A DNA stretch of 64,000 nucleotides from Eubacteriales bacterium (GTDB lineage Bacteria > Bacillota > Clostridia > Lachnospirales > Lachnospiraceae), in assembly GCA_030533405.1 (NCBI GenBank), contig JAUNJF010000015.1, positions 1 to 64,000 of the forward strand. The letters run 5' to 3'. Shown piece after piece: positions 968 through 25,700 of the stretch. The position numbers and the translations under genes are program-made. Below the pieces are notes generated by a model. The model was not told the DNA's origin, did no database searches, and was given only the letters and a program-made list of their open reading frames with translations. Every line of letters starts with the position of its first letter. The stretch's first letter is position 1.

Positions 968-2497
968 CTATGATGATGTTGGGTATGTATAATAACTCCC
1001 ACCTTCCCACTCACAAAAGAATGGATCTGTTACGTAATTAAATCCATCATCCCAATAACCACTGCTATACATATATGCATGATTCTGTGTTGCATAAAAA
1101 TTACCATTATTAGGCTCTGCACGATCCCAGTTTGTATAAGTAACCTCCTCGTCAGTTACCCATACCCAGTTGCTCTCATTTTCTGCATCACTAAAACCAA
1201 TGGCTGTATATCCATTACCACGCGCAAGCTGTCGTTACATCTCATTTTCTTCTGCCGAACCAACGGTAGCAAGATGTCCGCCACATTCCTCACAGAAAGC
1301 TTTCGCATCATCCCACGACAGATTTTTATTAACAAACGCATATAGATTGCCATTAAAGGATGTAAAATAAGCTTTCGCATCCAAGTCCATATCAACAACA
1401 GGATTTATCGGCTTAAGCTTTGCAGAATAATGAATTTTATCTGTAGATTGATTCACAAGATTTGGATCTAATTCGACATTTATCTGTATACCTTCTTCAT
1501 TATCTGATTGGTAATGGTAGGCTACCTTCTCTCCTGTTTCATTACCATACTCAAGTACAACACTGTCATTTTCTATACGAACGTTCTCACAAGTACCCTC
1601 ATAAAAATCAGCATCCACGTCATATATCTTTGTCACATCGGCTTCGCTCCAAAGTAATTCCATGTCTTCATCTGACGCGTGCAGATTAAAGCTTGTTCCT
1701 GACAACTCAATGCCTTTCGCATAAATACGACCATTGATTGTCACCTCATCGGCATTGATTCTCACTGTTCCATTCGGCGCTGCGAGGATACCATTGATAA
1801 CAATTTTGCTTCCACTAATATTGATATCTCCATTCTCTGATAATAAAACAATACGTCCACCATCTGCATTCAATGTATCGACACTATATTGAATAGCATC
1901 CTTTGCCATCATATAACAATCCCCATGAAAATGTGTTCCACTGATTTGCAAACCACCATGAGAACGCATAAATCCTTCATATACTTCTTCATTATTGACG
2001 TTCAAATAGTATTCCTGTTCACTCCACTCCTCACTCTTTGACACAATCATCTCCTTCAAATCAGGTAATGTAACAGCCTCAACATTTTCTTCACATTCTG
2101 TTACATCGAACGTTCCACACCACTGATTCATACAGCCAGATGTTCTCATTGCTCCATCAACGGATACCGATGTACCTGAGCATGTAATATCCCCATAAGA
2201 ATATAAATCTGCATCAAAATAAGACTGATTACAGTACAACTGTAACGACCGTTCTGTTGCTACCATCCCATATCTTTGAAGATTTTCTTTCTCCATCTTC
2301 TCGCTATCTTGCCAAACATTCGGCTCCACAATTTCTGTATTATCATATGTTGTTGCATTGGCATTGGCTACCGGCGTTAACACTGCTTCAAGCACCAAAA
2401 CCATTGTCATAAAAACAGCCAGACACTGTTTTGTTAATTTCCTTGTTTTCTTTTTGCTACAAAATTTCTTTCTTTTTCTTTTGTGAATGGTTTCCAT
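968..2497 (-). pseudogene. Secreted C-type lectin-domain protein, interrupted by an in-frame TAA
   Basis: The gene starts at ATG 2497 behind CAGGAGGAAC and runs 420 codons to TAA at 1235-1237. The same frame then continues another 88 codons to TAG at 968-970. The N-terminus is a very basic region followed by a hydrophobic signal segment ending near Ala-Asn-Ala (about residue 48). The middle is a Ser/Asn/Asp-rich beta-structured region. From about residue 376 a C-type lectin fold begins: SWDDAKAFCEECGGHLATV before the stop, then GYTAIGFSDAENESNWVWV, TNWDRAEPNN and a terminal DPFFCEWEGG after it. The stop therefore cuts the lectin domain, and one base change (for example TTA to TAA) explains it. 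The gene lies immediately downstream of agrB. It could make a truncated protein, or be read through or repaired in other strains. Confidence 0.8.
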
Positions 2498-2512: not shown

Positions 2513-2580
2513 GATTCCTTTATAACGATATTCACAAAAAAATTCTTTATATCAATGCAAATGATATAAAGAACTTTTTT
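2513..2580. repeat. Direct repeat copy 1 (with internal terminator)
   Basis: This 68-bp segment closely resembles 8057-8125. Both contain GATTCCTTTATAA, an A-rich tract, and a shared hairpin core TATATCAATGCAAATGATATAAA. The pair is in direct orientation about 5.5 kb apart and brackets the agr and toxin-antitoxin genes. Identity is roughly 80 percent by eye. Confidence 0.7.
2543..2573 (-). terminator. Intrinsic terminator overlapping the 3' end of agrB
   Basis: Arms TTCTTTATATCA and TGATATAAAGAA form a 12-bp stem around a 7-nt loop. On the minus strand a run of T follows (2535-2542). The stem includes the last codons and stop of agrB, so it would limit read-through from agrDB into the lectin gene 45 bp further on. 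Confidence 0.75.
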
Positions 2581-3127
2581 GATTCTTTGCACCAGCAATT
2601 AAGCCAATGGCAACTAAAACAAAGGTAGCACATATTACGTTTGCACACTGATTCTTTTTGCTCAACAAAAAACAAACCAACAATAAAACTTCTCCAAACG
2701 CAATACACAATGCATTTCTCCGATAAATTTTTACTTCCACCCTGTTAAGTGGCTTATTCTCACTCTGCACAGGTACAAGCTTAATAAATATAACCATAGA
2801 TACCATCGTCAATCCCACTATCAGCCAAATAGAAAATGGCACAAAAAAAGCACTTATAATACATAGCAAAGTGCTTATATATGTTAAATAAAAACAACTT
2901 TTTTTATTCTTTGCATGATATCCGCCAGCATATATACGTAATAGCGCGTAGCTAATCTCAAAAACGATTCCAACCCACATATTACCCATGATTGCTGCAC
3001 AAACGACAGAAAATATCCAATCCATTGTTATATTCATTAGTCGGGTTAGTCCGACTTCAACGATTTTGTCATTGCTTTCGTCAACTAACCCGACTTGCCT
3101 GAGCATGTTTGTTATTCTACTCTTCAT
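2552..3127 (-). CDS. agrB: AgrB-type autoinducer-processing membrane peptidase
   Basis: A 191-residue polytopic membrane protein of the AgrB family, which cleaves the AgrD propeptide and helps form the cyclic thiolactone signal. The signature R64-x-x-AGG-Y-H71-A and C78 are present. The His-Cys spacing of seven residues matches the catalytic pair known in staphylococcal AgrB. Several hydrophobic segments follow (about residues 80-100, 103-120, 140-155 and 163-180). The ATG at 3127 lies inside the last codons of agrD (11-bp overlap) and has no site of its own, which points to translational coupling. AgrC and AgrA homologues lie immediately upstream on the same strand. Assignment to the family is secure; the peptide specificity is inferred. 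Confidence 0.93.
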   Translation of the reverse strand: MKSRITNMLRQVGLVDESNDKIVEVGLTRLMNITMDWIFSVVCAAIMGNMWVGIVFEISYALLRIYAGGYHAKNKKSCFYLTYISTLLCIISAFFVPFSIWLIVGLTMVSMVIFIKLVPVQSENKPLNRVEVKIYRRNALCIAFGEVLLLVCFLLSKKNQCANVICATFVLVAIGLIAGAKNQKSSLYHLH

Positions 3128-3260
3128 TATGTTTTTTTAATGTACAAAGCTGTGGGTCAAGCTCTTCTTGATAAAAACGATAACAACATGTTGAATTAAC
3201 AGCCAATGTTGCTACTACCATTATCATGCTGTACAAAACTTTTGAAAACTTGCTTTTCAT
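3117..3260 (-). CDS. agrD: AgrD autoinducing-peptide precursor
   Basis: A 47-codon gene behind a strong GAGGAGGTGAG site. It has the layout of an AgrD precursor. An amphipathic, positively charged N-terminus (MKSKFSKVLYSMIMVVATLA) is followed by a signal core NSTCCYRFY and then an acidic tail QEELDPQL, which resembles the DEVEVPKEL tail of staphylococcal AgrD. By analogy the signal would end at Tyr30. The ring would be a five-residue thiolactone Cys26-Tyr-Arg-Phe-Tyr30, with a short N-terminal extension that includes Cys25. The precise N-terminus and whether Cys25 or Cys26 closes the ring cannot be read from sequence. It overlaps agrB by 11 bp, so the two are co-expressed. Confidence 0.85.
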   Translation of the reverse strand: MKSKFSKVLYSMIMVVATLAVNSTCCYRFYQEELDPQLCTLKKHNEE

Positions 3261-3282: not shown

Positions 3283-3354
3283 ACTCTAGCACATAAATCT
3301 GCAGATTCTGATTACATGGTAAAAATAACCCGTATATTGGTAAAACTGGTAAAA
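3283..3354 (-). promoter_or_regulatory. agrD promoter with direct repeats suited to a LytTR regulator
   Basis: A weak -10 (TAGAGT, plus-strand 3283-3288) with preceding TG lacks a good -35. Immediately upstream are three copies of TTTTACCA (minus strand; 3317-3324, 3338-3345, 3347-3354). The first two are exactly 21 bp apart, about two helical turns, which is the spacing typical of LytTR-family direct repeats. Further upstream ACACATTT/AAATGTGT (3359-3366, 3388-3395) form an inverted repeat. AgrA is the natural candidate activator; this is inferred. Confidence 0.5.
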
Positions 3355-3401
3355 AAATACACATTTACCACGCAATTTACACGCAACAAATGTGTATTTC
3401 A

Positions 3402-4676
3402 TTATGAATCTATGCTTTTTAAGTATAATACGATGTCAACCTTGAACATCTCCTTGTCCGTTTCAATTTGTTGTTCCCCTTCGTATCGCTTTACAACCTC
3501 GGATATATTTTTCATTCCAATCCCATGACAACCTTTTTCCTGCTTTCTTGTAAGATAGGTACTACCACGCTTCTTGACAATTCCGTCATAGGTATTATGC
3601 ACTCGTACAATCAAGACATTACAACGATAAATCAATTCAACATACAAATATCGATTTTCCGTTCGTTTTAATGCTTCCAACGCATTGTCTAATAGATTTC
3701 CCAACAATATATTTAAGTCAAATCCCGAAATAAACGTTTCCTTTGGAATCGCAATATTGGTCTCTATTTTACAATCCATATCCTGTGCTTTTTGTAACAT
3801 ACGATTTAAAATCATATCCACATCACGATTTCCTGTATCAACAAATCTTCCCGCTACATTCATAAAATCTCCGATTTGCGAAACATATGCTTTTGCGGCA
3901 TCATACTTTCCATCTTCAATGTAAGCGCTGATTAAATGTAAATGATTTTTCATATCGTGACGTATACCGTTTATATTATTTTGCGTCTGTTCCATAATTT
4001 CAAATTGCTGTGCATACATCGAAACACGTTCCTCAAACACATTTTTCTCGATTGTATTTCTATATGATTCGTTCACCTTATCATATAAGAAAAATGTACT
4101 CATATTAATCAAACCAATCACACAAAGCGCAATCCAGCTTTCCACCTTATCCCATGCTGCCAGACGTCCGATAATATGTACCAATACAATATTTCCAAGA
4201 AAAACAATAATGATATTATAATAACTTTCCTTCGAAATATATTGAGACTTGTTTCTCAGCATAAAATGTTCGAGGATTAAAATAATGCCAATCATCACCA
4301 AAGAGGTAACCAGAGAACCCATATATTCTGCTTTCTCTAACCAGTCAAACCACAAGAAAACTCTCCATACAACATCTTCCACCAAAATAGAAACAGCCAA
4401 TGTACAGCAAATCGCAAAAATTTTCCGAACAATACTTCCTTCATACAAGATTACTGCAGCAATTAACAACAAAAGAAATATAGAACCTGTTGTTAACAAA
4501 ACCTGATTATACACAAAATAGATTCCCCAATTTATAATCCAAACCAAAAAGAAAACTAAAACATTCAAATGATGCCGCAGTTTTCTTTTCTCTAAAAAAA
4601 TAGAGATAAACCGGAAATTCATATAGATTCCTAATATATTAAATACCGCACTTAAAAGTACCTCAATAACATCCAT
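3402..4676 (-). CDS. agrC: AgrC-type sensor histidine kinase
   Basis: About 424 residues. The N-terminal half has six or seven hydrophobic segments (about residues 5-205), as in peptide-sensing AgrC/ComD kinases. A linker helix leads to the phosphoacceptor motif RHDMKNHLHLISAYI (about residue 240), and then the ATP-binding domain with DLNILLGNLLDNALEAL (N box) and KGCHGIGMKNISEVV (G box). This is the GHKL subfamily that pairs with LytTR regulators. ATG 4676 was preferred over the adjacent in-frame GTG 4679 because AGGA lies at a better distance. It lies 7-10 bp downstream of agrA, so the two form one unit. It would detect the AgrD peptide and phosphorylate AgrA; the ligand match is inferred from linkage. 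Confidence 0.9.
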   Translation of the reverse strand: MDVIEVLLSAVFNILGIYMNFRFISIFLEKRKLRHHLNVLVFFLVWIINWGIYFVYNQVLLTTGSIFLLLLIAAVILYEGSIVRKIFAICCTLAVSILVEDVVWRVFLWFDWLEKAEYMGSLVTSLVMIGIILILEHFMLRNKSQYISKESYYNIIIVFLGNIVLVHIIGRLAAWDKVESWIALCVIGLINMSTFFLYDKVNESYRNTIEKNVFEERVSMYAQQFEIMEQTQNNINGIRHDMKNHLHLISAYIEDGKYDAAKAYVSQIGDFMNVAGRFVDTGNRDVDMILNRMLQKAQDMDCKIETNIAIPKETFISGFDLNILLGNLLDNALEALKRTENRYLYVELIYRCNVLIVRVHNTYDGIVKKRGSTYLTRKQEKGCHGIGMKNISEVVKRYEGEQQIETDKEMFKVDIVLYLKSIDS

Positions 4677-4685
4677 CACTGTTTC

Positions 4686-5393
4686 CTATCCGTTCTCTAT
4701 AATTTTTTTGCTTAAGTTACTTCGCATTGACCTGCTAACTGGAACACTATCCCCATTTATCATCGTAACAGAATCGCTGTTATACCCTATTACATGACGC
4801 ATATTTATTAAATATGATTTATGAACCAAGCAAAAAAAATCCGAGGAAATCTGTTCATACACCTCCGATAATTTACCATAAAACTGTTGCTCTCCATCCA
4901 ATGTAACCATCAAAATCTGCTTAGCCTGACTTTGAAAAAAAACGATATGTCGCTCATCAATTCGATGTTTACGTCTTCCGCTAATGTACTCAAAAAAACA
5001 AGGCTGAAAATCAAACAGCCTACCATACTCATCCAATATATATTTTACCCGCTCATAATTAATTGGTTTTACAAGAAAATTCATAGGTCGAATATCAAAC
5101 AACTGCATCGCATAGCTTTCTTTTGCAGAAACAAACACAATCTGCATCGCTTGTATTTTCTCATTCGAACGAATCCATTTTCCAACTTCCACTCCTGTTT
5201 CGTTCCCCAATTCAATATCTAAAAACAGAAGATCAAATCCTCCATCAGTATCAATATCCTCTAACAAATCTTGTGCGTTATAGAATGTCTGAATATCTAT
5301 TTTTATATTATTTTCCAATGAAAATCTCGATACATAATTTTCTAATTCAGAACAAAATACATCATCATCGTCACAAATAGCAACCTTGAGCAA
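4686..5393 (-). CDS. agrA: AgrA-type LytTR response regulator
   Basis: A 235-residue regulator. A receiver domain occupies about residues 1-120, with acidic pocket D8-D10, phospho-acceptor D59 in LLFLDIELG, and K109 in FLVKP. A LytTR DNA-binding domain follows (about 132-232, including FCLVHKSYLINMRHV and VPVSRSM). The start is TTG (5391-5393) behind AGGAGG; no ATG fits the receiver N-terminus. It follows the XRE regulator gene by 23 bp and precedes agrC, which indicates an XRE-agrA-agrC transcript. LytTR proteins bind spaced direct repeats, and such repeats are found before agrD. Confidence 0.92.
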   Translation of the reverse strand: MLKVAICDDDDVFCSELENYVSRFSLENNIKIDIQTFYNAQDLLEDIDTDGGFDLLFLDIELGNETGVEVGKWIRSNEKIQAMQIVFVSAKESYAMQLFDIRPMNFLVKPINYERVKYILDEYGRLFDFQPCFFEYISGRRKHRIDERHIVFFQSQAKQILMVTLDGEQQFYGKLSEVYEQISSDFFCLVHKSYLINMRHVIGYNSDSVTMINGDSVPVSRSMRSNLSKKIIENG

Positions 5394-6347: not shown

Positions 6348-6503
6348 TTAATTATTCTCCAATTGTACCTTTAATTGTTGGATTTCAAGACGTAATTTTT
6401 CTATCGTATCACCCTTCTTTACAAGTTCGTCTTTTTGCTCGTCTATCACCTTCAGCGCCTTCCAGATCGTAGCCTTAAACAGATATGCCCAGTAGTCAAT
6501 CAC
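6348..6503 (-). CDS. Small coiled-coil protein, third gene of the toxin-antitoxin operon
   Basis: A 51-codon gene whose GTG start (6501-6503) overlaps the TGA of the upstream antitoxin-like gene (GTGA), so translation is coupled. The product begins MIDYWAYLFKATIWKALK. It continues as one long charged helix with heptad-like Leu/Ile spacing (IEKLRLEIQQLKVQLENN). It has no signal or membrane segment. The gene lies before a good terminator, which closes the operon. The family is not recognised. A coiled coil of this size could be an oligomerisation partner of the HigA-ImmA protein, but that is only inference from position. Confidence 0.65.
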   Translation of the reverse strand: MIDYWAYLFKATIWKALKVIDEQKDELVKKGDTIEKLRLEIQQLKVQLENN

Positions 6504-7576
6504 GCTGTCTTTACTTTATACTTATATCTTATTGGTTTCATAGTCCAGTCATCAAATCCTACCAGCCCATCATTCTGCAATCTTCCTAATACAATTCCAG
6601 GATCTCTATTAATTTCTTCTGCAAAATGAACAATATCACTTAATGCAAATTTTCTATTTGCAACAAAATCATTATACTTATCTCTTGGAATCAAACTATC
6701 TTCAGCAAATAAATCGGCTGCAAGTTCCTGTTCTCCTGATTCTTTTTCAAAGGAAATTCCATAATCCCCATTGATAATATGACCTATCTCATGGAATAAA
6801 GTGAACCAAAATGAATCTGAATTAAGTCGTCTATCATTGACCATCAGCATGATATTATCGCCAATCTTCTTAGTTGCTCCGTTAATTCTTGAGCCAGCAA
6901 TATTAGGAAGAATTACAAAGATAACCCCAGCCTCCTCGAATGCTTTTCTAGTCAATGGATAAAATTCACTATGATTCTTAGTCAAGGTCAATGCATATTG
7001 CACTGCATCTTCAAATTTCTTTTTATTGAACTTTGGCGCATCAACTTCCAGTGCTTTATTTGTCGCAATCTGAACCATAATATTTGCTTTAACTGTACTA
7101 GCCTCTTCCAAAGCCTCTGTTGAACTTCTGAAGCTTACAGCCATGTCTCTCTTGGTAAATACAGTTAATGTCGCTACATTCAAGAATTCTCTTAGTGCCT
7201 TTATCTGTTCATCTTTCTTTCTAGGTAAATCAGGAAGACCATAGTTTTCTCTGAAATACTTATAATCAAATATCTCAAATACTTTTCTTTCCTCTACTAA
7301 CTCCTCCTGAGATTTAAACTCGGCTATCAAAGCATCATAAGCATTTTGGAGATTCAACCAATAATTTACACTGGTTCCAATCATTCTAGATAGCTTCATT
7401 GCAATATCAATTGATAAACTCTGCTCTCCTCGAATCAATAAACTTAAATTCTTAGGTGTTGTATCTAATCTCTTAGCAAAATCTTCTTGAGTTAATCCGC
7501 TTTCTTCTACAATTTCTTTAATATAATATCCTGGGTGAAATGCAACCGTATCATTATATTCAATGTAATTACTCAT
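6500..7576 (-). CDS. HigA-like antitoxin fused to an ImmA/IrrE metallopeptidase domain
   Basis: A 358-residue protein. An N-terminal helix-turn-helix of the HigA/VapI type (about residues 14-75) includes SGLTQEDFAKRLDTTPKNLS and the typical GTSVNYWLNLQNAYD. A zinc-peptidase domain of the ImmA/IrrE (COG2856) type follows, with HEIGH at residues 262-266 and a downstream glutamate in EQELAADLFAED. It starts 8 bp inside the end of the toxin gene, behind GGAGGTGAG. It is expected to neutralise the toxin and repress the operon; whether the peptidase cleaves itself, the small coiled-coil partner or the toxin is unknown. Confidence 0.88.
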   Translation of the reverse strand: MSNYIEYNDTVAFHPGYYIKEIVEESGLTQEDFAKRLDTTPKNLSLLIRGEQSLSIDIAMKLSRMIGTSVNYWLNLQNAYDALIAEFKSQEELVEERKVFEIFDYKYFRENYGLPDLPRKKDEQIKALREFLNVATLTVFTKRDMAVSFRSSTEALEEASTVKANIMVQIATNKALEVDAPKFNKKKFEDAVQYALTLTKNHSEFYPLTRKAFEEAGVIFVILPNIAGSRINGATKKIGDNIMLMVNDRRLNSDSFWFTLFHEIGHIINGDYGISFEKESGEQELAADLFAEDSLIPRDKYNDFVANRKFALSDIVHFAEEINRDPGIVLGRLQNDGLVGFDDWTMKPIRYKYKVKTA

Positions 7577-7940
7577 AATGTTTGCTCACCTCCATTATTT
7601 CAACAATCCTCACATTCTGCGATATCTCATCGATATTGCACGGAACATATGGTTCCTTATTCTCATCAATTGGCTCTAATATTATACGCCACTGGTCTCG
7701 TCTCGATTTCACATCAATAGCAAAACATCCTTCTAGGTTCCTCCCACCTTTGTTTTCAAGTTTATGAAAGTGAAAGGTTGGTTGAACTATAATATCTTTA
7801 ATAGTCTCTGCCTGCTTCAAAGCATTTATCCTGGCAAAAAGGCTTTTTGCCAGTGCATCATTTCCACCAAATAGCTTCTTAGCTGCTTTTAAGCTAGTAC
7901 ATTGTTCCTCAGTTTTGGCATCTGTATAAACTAATTCCAA
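7569..7940 (-). CDS. RelE/HigB-type toxin
   Basis: About 123 residues from TTG 7940, which sits 6 nt behind AGGAGG (7947-7952). The in-frame ATG at 7970 is only a few bases from the predicted transcript start and has no site, so it was not chosen. The sequence shows the RelE-superfamily fold. There is an N-terminal helix with ALAKSLFARINALKQ, then the strand pattern FHKLENKGGRNLEGCFAID, DQWRIILEP and VRIVEIMEVSKHYE. Such toxins cleave mRNA on the ribosome. It overlaps the antitoxin-like gene by 8 bp, the toxin-first order usual for higBA. Confidence 0.87.
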   Translation of the reverse strand: MELVYTDAKTEEQCTSLKAAKKLFGGNDALAKSLFARINALKQAETIKDIIVQPTFHFHKLENKGGRNLEGCFAIDVKSRRDQWRIILEPIDENKEPYVPCNIDEISQNVRIVEIMEVSKHYE

Positions 7941-7962
7941 TGCCTTCCTCCTTTTCACCAAA

Positions 7963-8011
7963 TTACCCATCAGGTAATCTAATTATAGTCCTCAGGTGTA
8001 CTTTTTGTCAA
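7963..8011 (-). promoter_or_regulatory. higBA promoter and probable operator
   Basis: On the minus strand TTGACA (plus 8006-8011) and TATAAT (7982-7987), both consensus, are 18 bp apart. A perfect inverted repeat TTACC-n5-GGTAA (7963-7977) covers the predicted start of transcription. This suits autorepression by the HigA-like protein. Confidence 0.85.
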
Positions 8012-22764: not shown

Positions 22765-25700
22765 TCATTTTATTTCAATTGCTTTATCTAATGCGAAAGC
22801 ATAAATATAGCTTTCTTTTACCTTTAATCCTGTTAACTGTTCTAATGTATCTTTGTAATACATCAACTGTGTTGCATATCGTTTTACCAGTTTTTCTTCC
22901 TCTCCCAGTTTTGCAAAATCTGTTTTATAATCTAGCAATACGAGATAGTCCTCTTCCTGAAAATACGCATCGATAATACCTTGTACTAAGATTAATTTAT
23001 CATTTTCATCATCCCTTGATTCCCGCATAATCTTATGCGCGGGTACACCTGCAATAAATTGTTTTTCTTTGCATAACAAACCCAATTTTGCTGCACGCTG
23101 CATTCTTTTTCCAAGTGACGACTGCAACAATGTATAGATTTTATCTGCTGAGAAAAAGGAAACAATATCCTTTGGTATTCTGCCTTCCTCTATCATATCT
23201 GTCAAGCTTTTTTGCAATTGTTCTTTTGTAAGCTCCATACCAAAATCAACCAATTCCATCGTTTTATGAACCCAGGTTCCCTGCGTTGCACGATCCATAG
23301 GAATATCCCCTTGCAAAAACTTTGGCAATGGTGCAACATACTCTTTTTCACGTTCCATTTCAATCACGTCTGAAGGTTCAAAATCTGTTTCATAAATCCG
23401 CTTAATTTCCGTAACAGAAAGCTTTGATTTTATCGTAGTATACTGACTATCATGATAGTTCCAATGCAACGCTTCCGACAAAGGCTCTTTATTACATGCT
23501 TCTTTTTGTTGCCACTGTATCAGTGCATATTCTCTGTCGTTTTCTTTTTCCAAATCTGTCTTTAAATGCTGCACAATTAAATTCATATAATCAAACACTT
23601 CAACCTTTAATCGAATCGATTCTCGAGAAATTTTTTCCTTTCTCTCGTATTCCGCACTGATAATTGCTTCCCCTTTTTTATCCATGCGTTTTCGAACTTG
23701 CTTCATTGCCATTTCAAACACTTCATTACGCATCAATCCCATCACAATAAGATCTAAATAACTACGTGCCATTTTCACATTTGCAAACGATAATTTTTCT
23801 TCCTTTCTTGTTGCAATATGTTCATATCGCTTCACCAGGGCAGGGACATCACTTGTCACACCAGTCATAATCAACTTCTCTTTTGCTCTTGTCATTGCAA
23901 CATAAAGAATTCTTAATTCCTCTGCGATATTTTCCGTGGTTGTCAACGCAACCATCGCCTTTCGAAGAAAGGTATCATTTCCACGTCGTTTTTCCGTATC
24001 ACGATACTTCGCTCCAATATAATAATCTGGATGTATAATAATTGGTGTTTTAGTATCCATCTGATTAAATGTTTTTCCAATTCCAGACAAAAATACAACT
24101 GGAAATTCCAATCCTTTACTCTTATGAATACTCATCATCCGAACAACATTTTCTGATGTATCTATACCTGGATCTCCACCTAAAGAAATCGATTTTTTTT
24201 GCAGCTTTTCAACATATCTTAAAAAGTCAAATACACTGCAAAAAGCATCAACCTCACACTTTTGTGCTTCCTGTAAAAACAGCTCCAGATTCCTTGCTCT
24301 TCGTCCTCCTTCTGGCATCCCTTTTACATAAAAATAATAATTTTCCTTCATGTAAATCTCAGATAAAATATCACCAATTCCATGGATTTCTTTTTTCGAA
24401 ATCAAATGATTTAACAACGCATACAATGCACTACATTTTTTTTCAATTTCACGAACATCTATTCCATCCAACAAGAGTTCATAATCCTGTAAAAACGAAT
24501 GAAATTCCTGTTCGTTCCAAGACACAATCTGCTTTATAACATCGTATAAATACAGTCGATACGCATCCTGTTTTTCACTTTGCATGGCTTGTATTTTTTG
24601 TTCCAATTTACGTTTTAACAAAACAATCCATGTCAGCTCGTTACTATTACATCCACCAAAATAACTGCGTAATACAGCTGCAAACTCCACATCATTATAT
24701 GGATTATCCAATACACGAAGTAAACTCAAAACAAGACGAATTTCTATGGTGTCAAAATACCCATTTTCATTCTGTACAAGGACTGGTATTCCCTTTGCCA
24801 TAAGGGTTTCATAAAACACCTGTTGATAGCTCGATGGCGCACGAAATAAAATGACAATATCACGATATTGAAGATTTCTCCATTCCCCTGTTTGCTCATC
24901 AACAACCTGATATGCTGTATCTCCCTGCATCAAATCCAAAATACGATTTGCTACCATCGTTGCCTCTAATTCTTTCTTTCCAATATCTTCTAATTCATCA
25001 TTTAACTGCTCATCATTTTGAGCTGATTCCATCTCATCCTCTGCACGAAGAAATTCGAAATCCTTTGTTTCACCAATCAGCAATTCCACACTGTCATCGG
25101 AGCCTTCTAAAAACGTCTTTCCCGGAATCAAAGCCTCGTCCTCTGTGTAATCAATACCGCCCAAATCCGCTCCCATGATTTGATAAAACAAATAATTAAT
25201 GCCTTCCAAAACATTGGCTCTGCTTCGAAAATTATTCTTCAAAAGAAGCTTTCGATTGCTACTTCCTTCCTCTAATGCATAGGTATGATATTTATCCATA
25301 AACAAATCGGGTCTTGCCATTCGAAAACGATAAATACTCTGCTTCACATCACCTACCATAAATATGTTATTTTTACCTTCTGGAACGGTAGATACACAGC
25401 GCAAAATTGCTTCCTGCAAAAAGTTACTATCCTGATACTCATCAATCATAATCTCAACAAAATCAGCAGCCATTTCCTTTCCAATTGCACTTGGAATCGC
25501 ATTGCCATCTTCATCATATCCCGCACATAAAACCTTCAATGCACAGTGTTCCACATCACTAAATTCCAATATATTCTTCGCCAATTTTTCTTCCAAAAAA
25601 CGTGCACGAAATGCATCTACTGCATCTAATAACGCAATCATCATCGGTGCCTGTTTTTGCATCTGCTCAACAACAGACGAAAATGGCAATACAAACATCT

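Follow-up and report, generated by a model that had tools for sequence, protein, structure and literature searches.

Which peptide signal is encoded by a gene of only 47 codons beside agrB in a member of the Lachnospiraceae, and which of its two adjacent cysteines would close the ring? In this work we have examined a stretch of 64,000 nucleotides (positions 1 to 64,000 of contig JAUNJF010000015.1, here called the window), in which four genes follow one another on the minus strand in the order agrA, agrC, agrD and agrB and form a complete agr set:

2552..3127, minus strand: agrB, peptide-processing membrane peptidase (PF04647, 99.8 bits, cut-off 23), with the motif HX6C at residues 71-78
3117..3260, minus strand: agrD, AgrD precursor with leader 1-24, predicted ring Cys25-Phe29 (CCYRF) and tail 30-47 (TIGR04223 and relatives)
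3402..4679, minus strand: agrC, GHKL-type sensor kinase and probable receptor (PF14501, E 1.2e-22; proteins 42-45% identical in four congeners)
4686..5393, minus strand: agrA, response regulator with a receiver and a LytTR DNA-binding domain (PF00072, PF04397)

With AgrB, a GHKL-type AgrC and a LytTR-type AgrA together, the locus is an ordinary complete agr system. The NCBIfam AgrA and AgrB-like models scored far under their cut-offs here (34.2 against 400 bits and 33 against 282 bits, respectively). The HX6C motif of AgrB supplies His71 and Cys78, which we take to be its active-site pair. Three further AgrB places are found in the same genome, on contigs C5, C27 and C74 (L074, L075 and L076), and the AgrD-like ORFs there have other cores, two of them lying upstream of agrB and one downstream. 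As for the surroundings of the locus, within 968-2497 (minus strand) the gene that follows agrB stops partway through a weak C-type lectin match, which covers 29 of 107 profile positions and scores below the cut-off. Lectin-like sequence, judged by eye, continues in the same frame past that point (ORF 968..1072), so an in-frame stop seems to have interrupted the gene. At 6500-7970, also on the minus strand, there are two adjacent ORFs which by eye resemble a helix-turn-helix/peptidase regulator (6500..7576) and a small partner of the toxin-antitoxin type (7569..7970).

The sequence-only reading had proposed a 47-codon gene with a strong ribosome-binding site, overlapping agrB by 11 bp, and all of this was borne out. 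The ORF runs on the minus strand, which that reading had not given, from an ATG start at 3260 to 3117 (MKSKFSKVLYSMIMVVATLAVNSTCCYRFYQEELDPQLCTLKKHNEE), and it is preceded by CACTGAGGAGGTGAGACTACATG, a strong ribosome-binding site. Its product scored 24.2 bits against NCBIfam TIGR04223, the AgrD cyclic lactone autoinducer family, the cut-off of which is 19 (hmmscan); when the whole genome was searched with this model, six places were returned at E up to 10 and only agrD exceeded the cut-off (23.1 bits there). No Pfam family, that of the staphylococcal AgrD included, matched the agrD product at E up to 1, which sets it apart from the Staphylococcus aureus agr system. The relatives G308, G303 and G241 have this frame open too, and the differences at codon positions 1, 2 and 3 number 19, 12 and 26 between the window and G308, 20, 8 and 23 between the window and G303, and 20, 12 and 29 between G308 and G303. 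The gene is real and is a member of the AgrD cyclic lactone autoinducer family; gene, family and locus are directly established. A second, weak AgrD match in the window (23478-23567, E 0.26) was dismissed, there being no AgrB place at that site.

The overlap of the two genes covers 3117..3127, with agrD upstream. Because agrB begins within the 3' end of agrD and has no evident ribosome-binding site before its start, we infer that the two genes are probably translationally coupled. It had also been claimed that the product has the three parts of an AgrD precursor, a basic amphipathic leader, a core and an acidic tail, and this division is supported by TIGR04223 and by the adjoining agrB. The leader (residues 1-24) is indeed basic, with a net charge of +3, and the tail is acidic (net charge -3 over residues 30-38). 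The case for an amphipathic leader is weak: of the four stretches tried, three had a helical moment that 815 to 912 shuffles out of 5000 equalled (896 for residues 1-18), and that of the best stretch, residues 4-21, was reached in 191 of 5000.

To which residues should the ring be assigned? In a sample of 397 genomes of the bacterial family, its own genome included, AgrB matches at E 1e-8 were found in 57 genomes, at 77 places, and 58 AgrB places were examined, namely the window, three more in its own genome, four in the genus and 50 of the 76 other places in the family. From these, 39 AgrD-like sequences were chosen by eye under the condition that a C or S is followed by a P 6-14 residues later; this set excludes the window itself, one duplicate peptide and 17 places where no candidate was convincing. 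Of the 39, 32 have agrD upstream of agrB and seven have it downstream. A tail motif, [QEDH][PEDL]xxP, is present in 37 of the 39 sequences (beginning with Q in 35, with E in one and with D in one), and the residue six before it is cysteine in 28 of these 37 and serine in the other nine. Counted six back from Gln31 of the window, this residue is Cys25. The window's tail, QEELDPQL, has its proline one place later than Gln-(Pro/Glu/Asp)-x-x-Pro, as do the tails of G308 and G303, so that this motif, which is a description drawn from the relatives in this analysis and not a curated criterion, is absent from it.

The nearest relatives are those of G241 (NSTCFYKLYQEELPEEL), G308 (NSTCAYHFYQDELSPEL) and G303 (NSTCFCRFHQEKMDPQL); over N22 to L38 they align with the window and no gap is needed. 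Their cores read NSTCFYKLYQ, NSTCAYHFYQ and NSTCFCRFHQ, respectively, and that of the window NSTCCYRFYQ. N22, S23, T24, C25 and Q31 are invariant in all four, and position 26 is Cys in the window, Ala in G308 and Phe in both G303 and G241. In a profile of 38 AgrD-like sequences, from which G241 was left out, Cys25 falls in the conserved Cys column. We place the ring cysteine at Cys25, because both the anchoring at Gln31 and the three relatives aligned gap-free through the core point to it. This conserved spacing, which is observed directly, suggests a ring running Cys25-Cys-Tyr-Arg-Phe29 (CCYRF), in which case Tyr30 would be the first residue of the discarded tail.

This differs from the ring first proposed for the gene, a thiolactone between Cys26 and Tyr30 (CYRFY) that would leave Cys25 in the peptide's tail. 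The late proline offers that ring some support, since ten residues back from Pro36, which is the usual distance from the cysteine to the proline and the distance between the six-before residue and the motif proline in the 37 sequences, one arrives at Cys26. Moreover, two of the AgrD-like sequences (L085 and L052) have Ser-Cys at the same two places, Ser being the sixth and Cys the fifth residue ahead of the Gln, and there the ring residue may be the later one. However, G308 retains the same late proline and has a single core cysteine, which aligns with Cys25, and in the four nearest sequences it is position 26 that varies, not Cys25. The CYRFY ring is therefore not supported and we consider it unlikely.

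Could the ring extend by one residue, from Cys25 to Tyr30 (CCYRFY)? Six-residue rings have been reported or predicted for the autoinducing peptides of C. acetobutylicum and some relatives (PMC4916163, PMC10301443), but five-membered rings are termed far commoner (PMC10301443), and in the AgrD described from Clostridium thermocellum, Clo1313_2818, the ring ends before the tyrosine (PMC5322536). The larger ring thus seems improbable to us, and CCYRF remains the predicted ring. Autoinducing peptides without an N-terminal tail can, according to one account, rearrange into all-amide rings (PMC11297923). By analogy, the window's peptide might do the same if its trimming reached Cys25.

The S. aureus agr system has the same four components and the same processing logic as the locus in the window. 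The staphylococcal gene order, agrBDCA, is reversed relative to that of the window, and it is likewise described as the reverse of agrACDB, the agr2 locus of Clostridioides difficile, which shares both the order A-C-D-B and the components with the window (PMC3754575). In C. thermocellum the ring of Clo1313_2818 was described as Ser25-Phe29, confirmed by LC-MS/MS, so that, as predicted for the window, it begins at residue 25 and ends at Phe29, with Tyr30 following (PMC5322536). The two differ in that Clo1313_2818 forms a serine lactone, whereas a cysteine thiolactone is predicted here, and its conserved proline is at 35 rather than 36 (PMC5322536); moreover, it is described as lying outside an agr operon, unlike the window's agrD. 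A five-residue thiolactone made from AgrD, which for the window is a prediction, is also described for Listeria monocytogenes (CFMFV; PMC4916163), where the residues are different from those of the window's core and only one of them is a cysteine; whether the Listeria peptide carries a tail of one residue is debated (PMC11297923).

The signal had been thought to look new, and our searches are consistent with that. CYRFY did not occur in a literature text search and CCYRF was found in only two works which, judged by title, concern other subjects. We compared 41 related cores (the 39 AgrD-like sequences, G308 and G303) without meeting an identical one, and among the matches listed for agr peptides of gut relatives, judged by titles and the beginnings of abstracts, none describes this peptide. 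The precursor is of a known kind, and the text search turned up no published agr peptide with its core.

Relatives were also sought outside the family sample. The AgrB query gave none in a collection of genome contigs (83 pattern matches) or in viral contigs (29 pattern matches). An alignment of two AgrD sequences gave one relative in the genome contigs (83 pattern matches), very probably identical to the G241 contig, and none in the viral contigs (130 pattern matches), where an alignment of four found none either (55 pattern matches). Phage records held three distant matches to AgrB (23-26% identity), and plasmid records gave no match to the AgrD query.

We think it quite probable that AgrB matures the agrD product into a cyclic autoinducing peptide with a CCYRF ring, which is sensed by AgrC and linked to its own expression through AgrA; these four points, processing, ring, receptor pairing and autoinduction, we infer. 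The leader would position AgrD at the membrane, where AgrB, through His71 and Cys78, would cleave after Phe29, discard the tail Tyr30-Glu47 and close a five-residue thiolactone between the thiol of Cys25 and the carboxylate of Phe29. Another peptidase would trim the N-terminal side, leaving between zero and a few residues of ...NST. AgrC would then sense the exported peptide and phosphorylate AgrA, which would bind repeats spaced by 21 bp upstream of agrD and raise the expression of agrDB. Three further features bear on this last step and on the limits of the transcription units:

3317..3345, minus strand: direct repeat, TTTTACCA twice, 21 bp apart, upstream of agrD; candidate AgrA site (repeat comparison with congeners)
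3345..3405, minus strand: hairpin and T run after agrC, possible terminator (-20 kcal/mol, z -4.1)
2530..2582, minus strand: strong A+T-rich hairpin with T run where agrB ends, likely terminator (-21 kcal/mol, z -7.6)

Sites of the AgrA type have a period of 21 bp. In S. aureus, AgrA is described as binding a pair of direct repeats that lie upstream of its promoters (PMC4227749). The repeat in the window is directly observed, and similar repeats at 21 bp are present in G308 (ATTTTGACAA and TTTTTGACAA) and in G303 (AATTTTTCCA and ATTTTTACCA). The 21-bp spacing was spotted by eye and tested afterwards: with words of 12, the joint score of the window, G308 and G303 at 21 bp was reached by none of 400 dinucleotide shuffles, and the joint best at any distance of 15-30 bp by 10 of 400. 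Taken singly, with the same word length, the top distance is 30 bp in the window and 16 and 20 bp in G303, and in G308 21 bp ties with 26 bp; in G241, which the joint score does not include, 21 bp scores best. In its exact form the repeat pattern occurs once in the genome, at agrD. Further AgrA targets were not evident, as with up to one mismatch there are 18 places in the genome (1 exact) against 12 for a reversed control. In the window alone, when as many as two mismatches are allowed, 15 places (1 exact) carry the pattern, compared with 3.03 on average and 7 at most in 100 shuffles. The comparison gives modest support to 3317..3345 as a candidate AgrA site. A terminator scan that requires at least 3 G-C pairs found 0 sites where 1.4 were expected and listed neither hairpin, and a promoter scan was uninformative (20 sites, 18.2 expected). 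The stretch of the hairpin after agrC is gapped in the alignment with G308 and G303.

Among 26 genomes of the genus, the window's own included, 21 have an AgrC match at E 1e-20. Those of G308, G303, G313 and G302 are 42-45% identical and near full length, and the others, among the matches listed, reach at most 33%; we treat the agrAC pairs of the four as close homologues and not as proven orthologues. G308 has agrA, agrC, agrD and then the first 64 residues of AgrB up to the end of the contig (41% identity across 61 positions; the Pfam AgrB score, 16.6 bits, falls short of the cut-off, 23). In G303 (L100), a genome 70% complete, agrA, agrC and agrD lead, without an intervening agrB, to a gene for a protein with a cellulose-binding domain. 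G313 (L101) and G302 (L102) have agrA and agrC with neither agrD nor agrB adjoining; the G302 contig measures 5 kb and a C39-peptidase ABC transporter follows agrAC there. The AgrD profile at E 0.1 found no place on the agrAC contigs of G302 and G313, and elsewhere it matched G302:C53 (E 4e-6) and G313:C152 (E 0.08). AgrB genes lie elsewhere in G303 (one), G302 (two) and G313 (one), so processing or signalling in these three may proceed from another place.

The pairing of AgrC with AgrD is something we do not read directly from the locus, because close agrAC homologues without adjoining agrD or agrB exist in G302 and G313. Is it possible that AgrD is made and processed but that the adjacent AgrC responds to some other peptide or to a foreign one, with agrDB as a separate unit beside it? 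The receptor genes that stand alone in G302 and G313, the agrD without an adjoining agrB in G303 and the hairpin with its T run between agrC and agrD would all fit such an arrangement. However, G308 keeps the order A-C-D-B up to its contig end, both it and G303 have a like repeat upstream of agrD, and we regard a foreign ligand as doubtful compared with the self-sensing circuit described above. A broader reading would be that agrAC outlives its signal in this genus, with some species keeping the full locus, one an agrD without adjoining agrB and others only the receptor, which might listen to the peptides of neighbours, and that the second ring cysteine of the window's peptide might allow the thiolactone to alternate between two ring forms. 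We hold this joint reading to be rather speculative, and its probability is lowered because the receptor-only congeners have AgrB genes elsewhere.

For synthesis, CCYRF is a better-supported ring than CYRFY, and the agrC product is a candidate receptor. For the AgrDs of this bacterial family in general, our comparison offers a rule of thumb: the ring residue stands six positions ahead of the residue that opens the tail motif. Signal specificity, and receivers that send no signal themselves, could be tested directly in the close relatives, whose cores and gene content differ.
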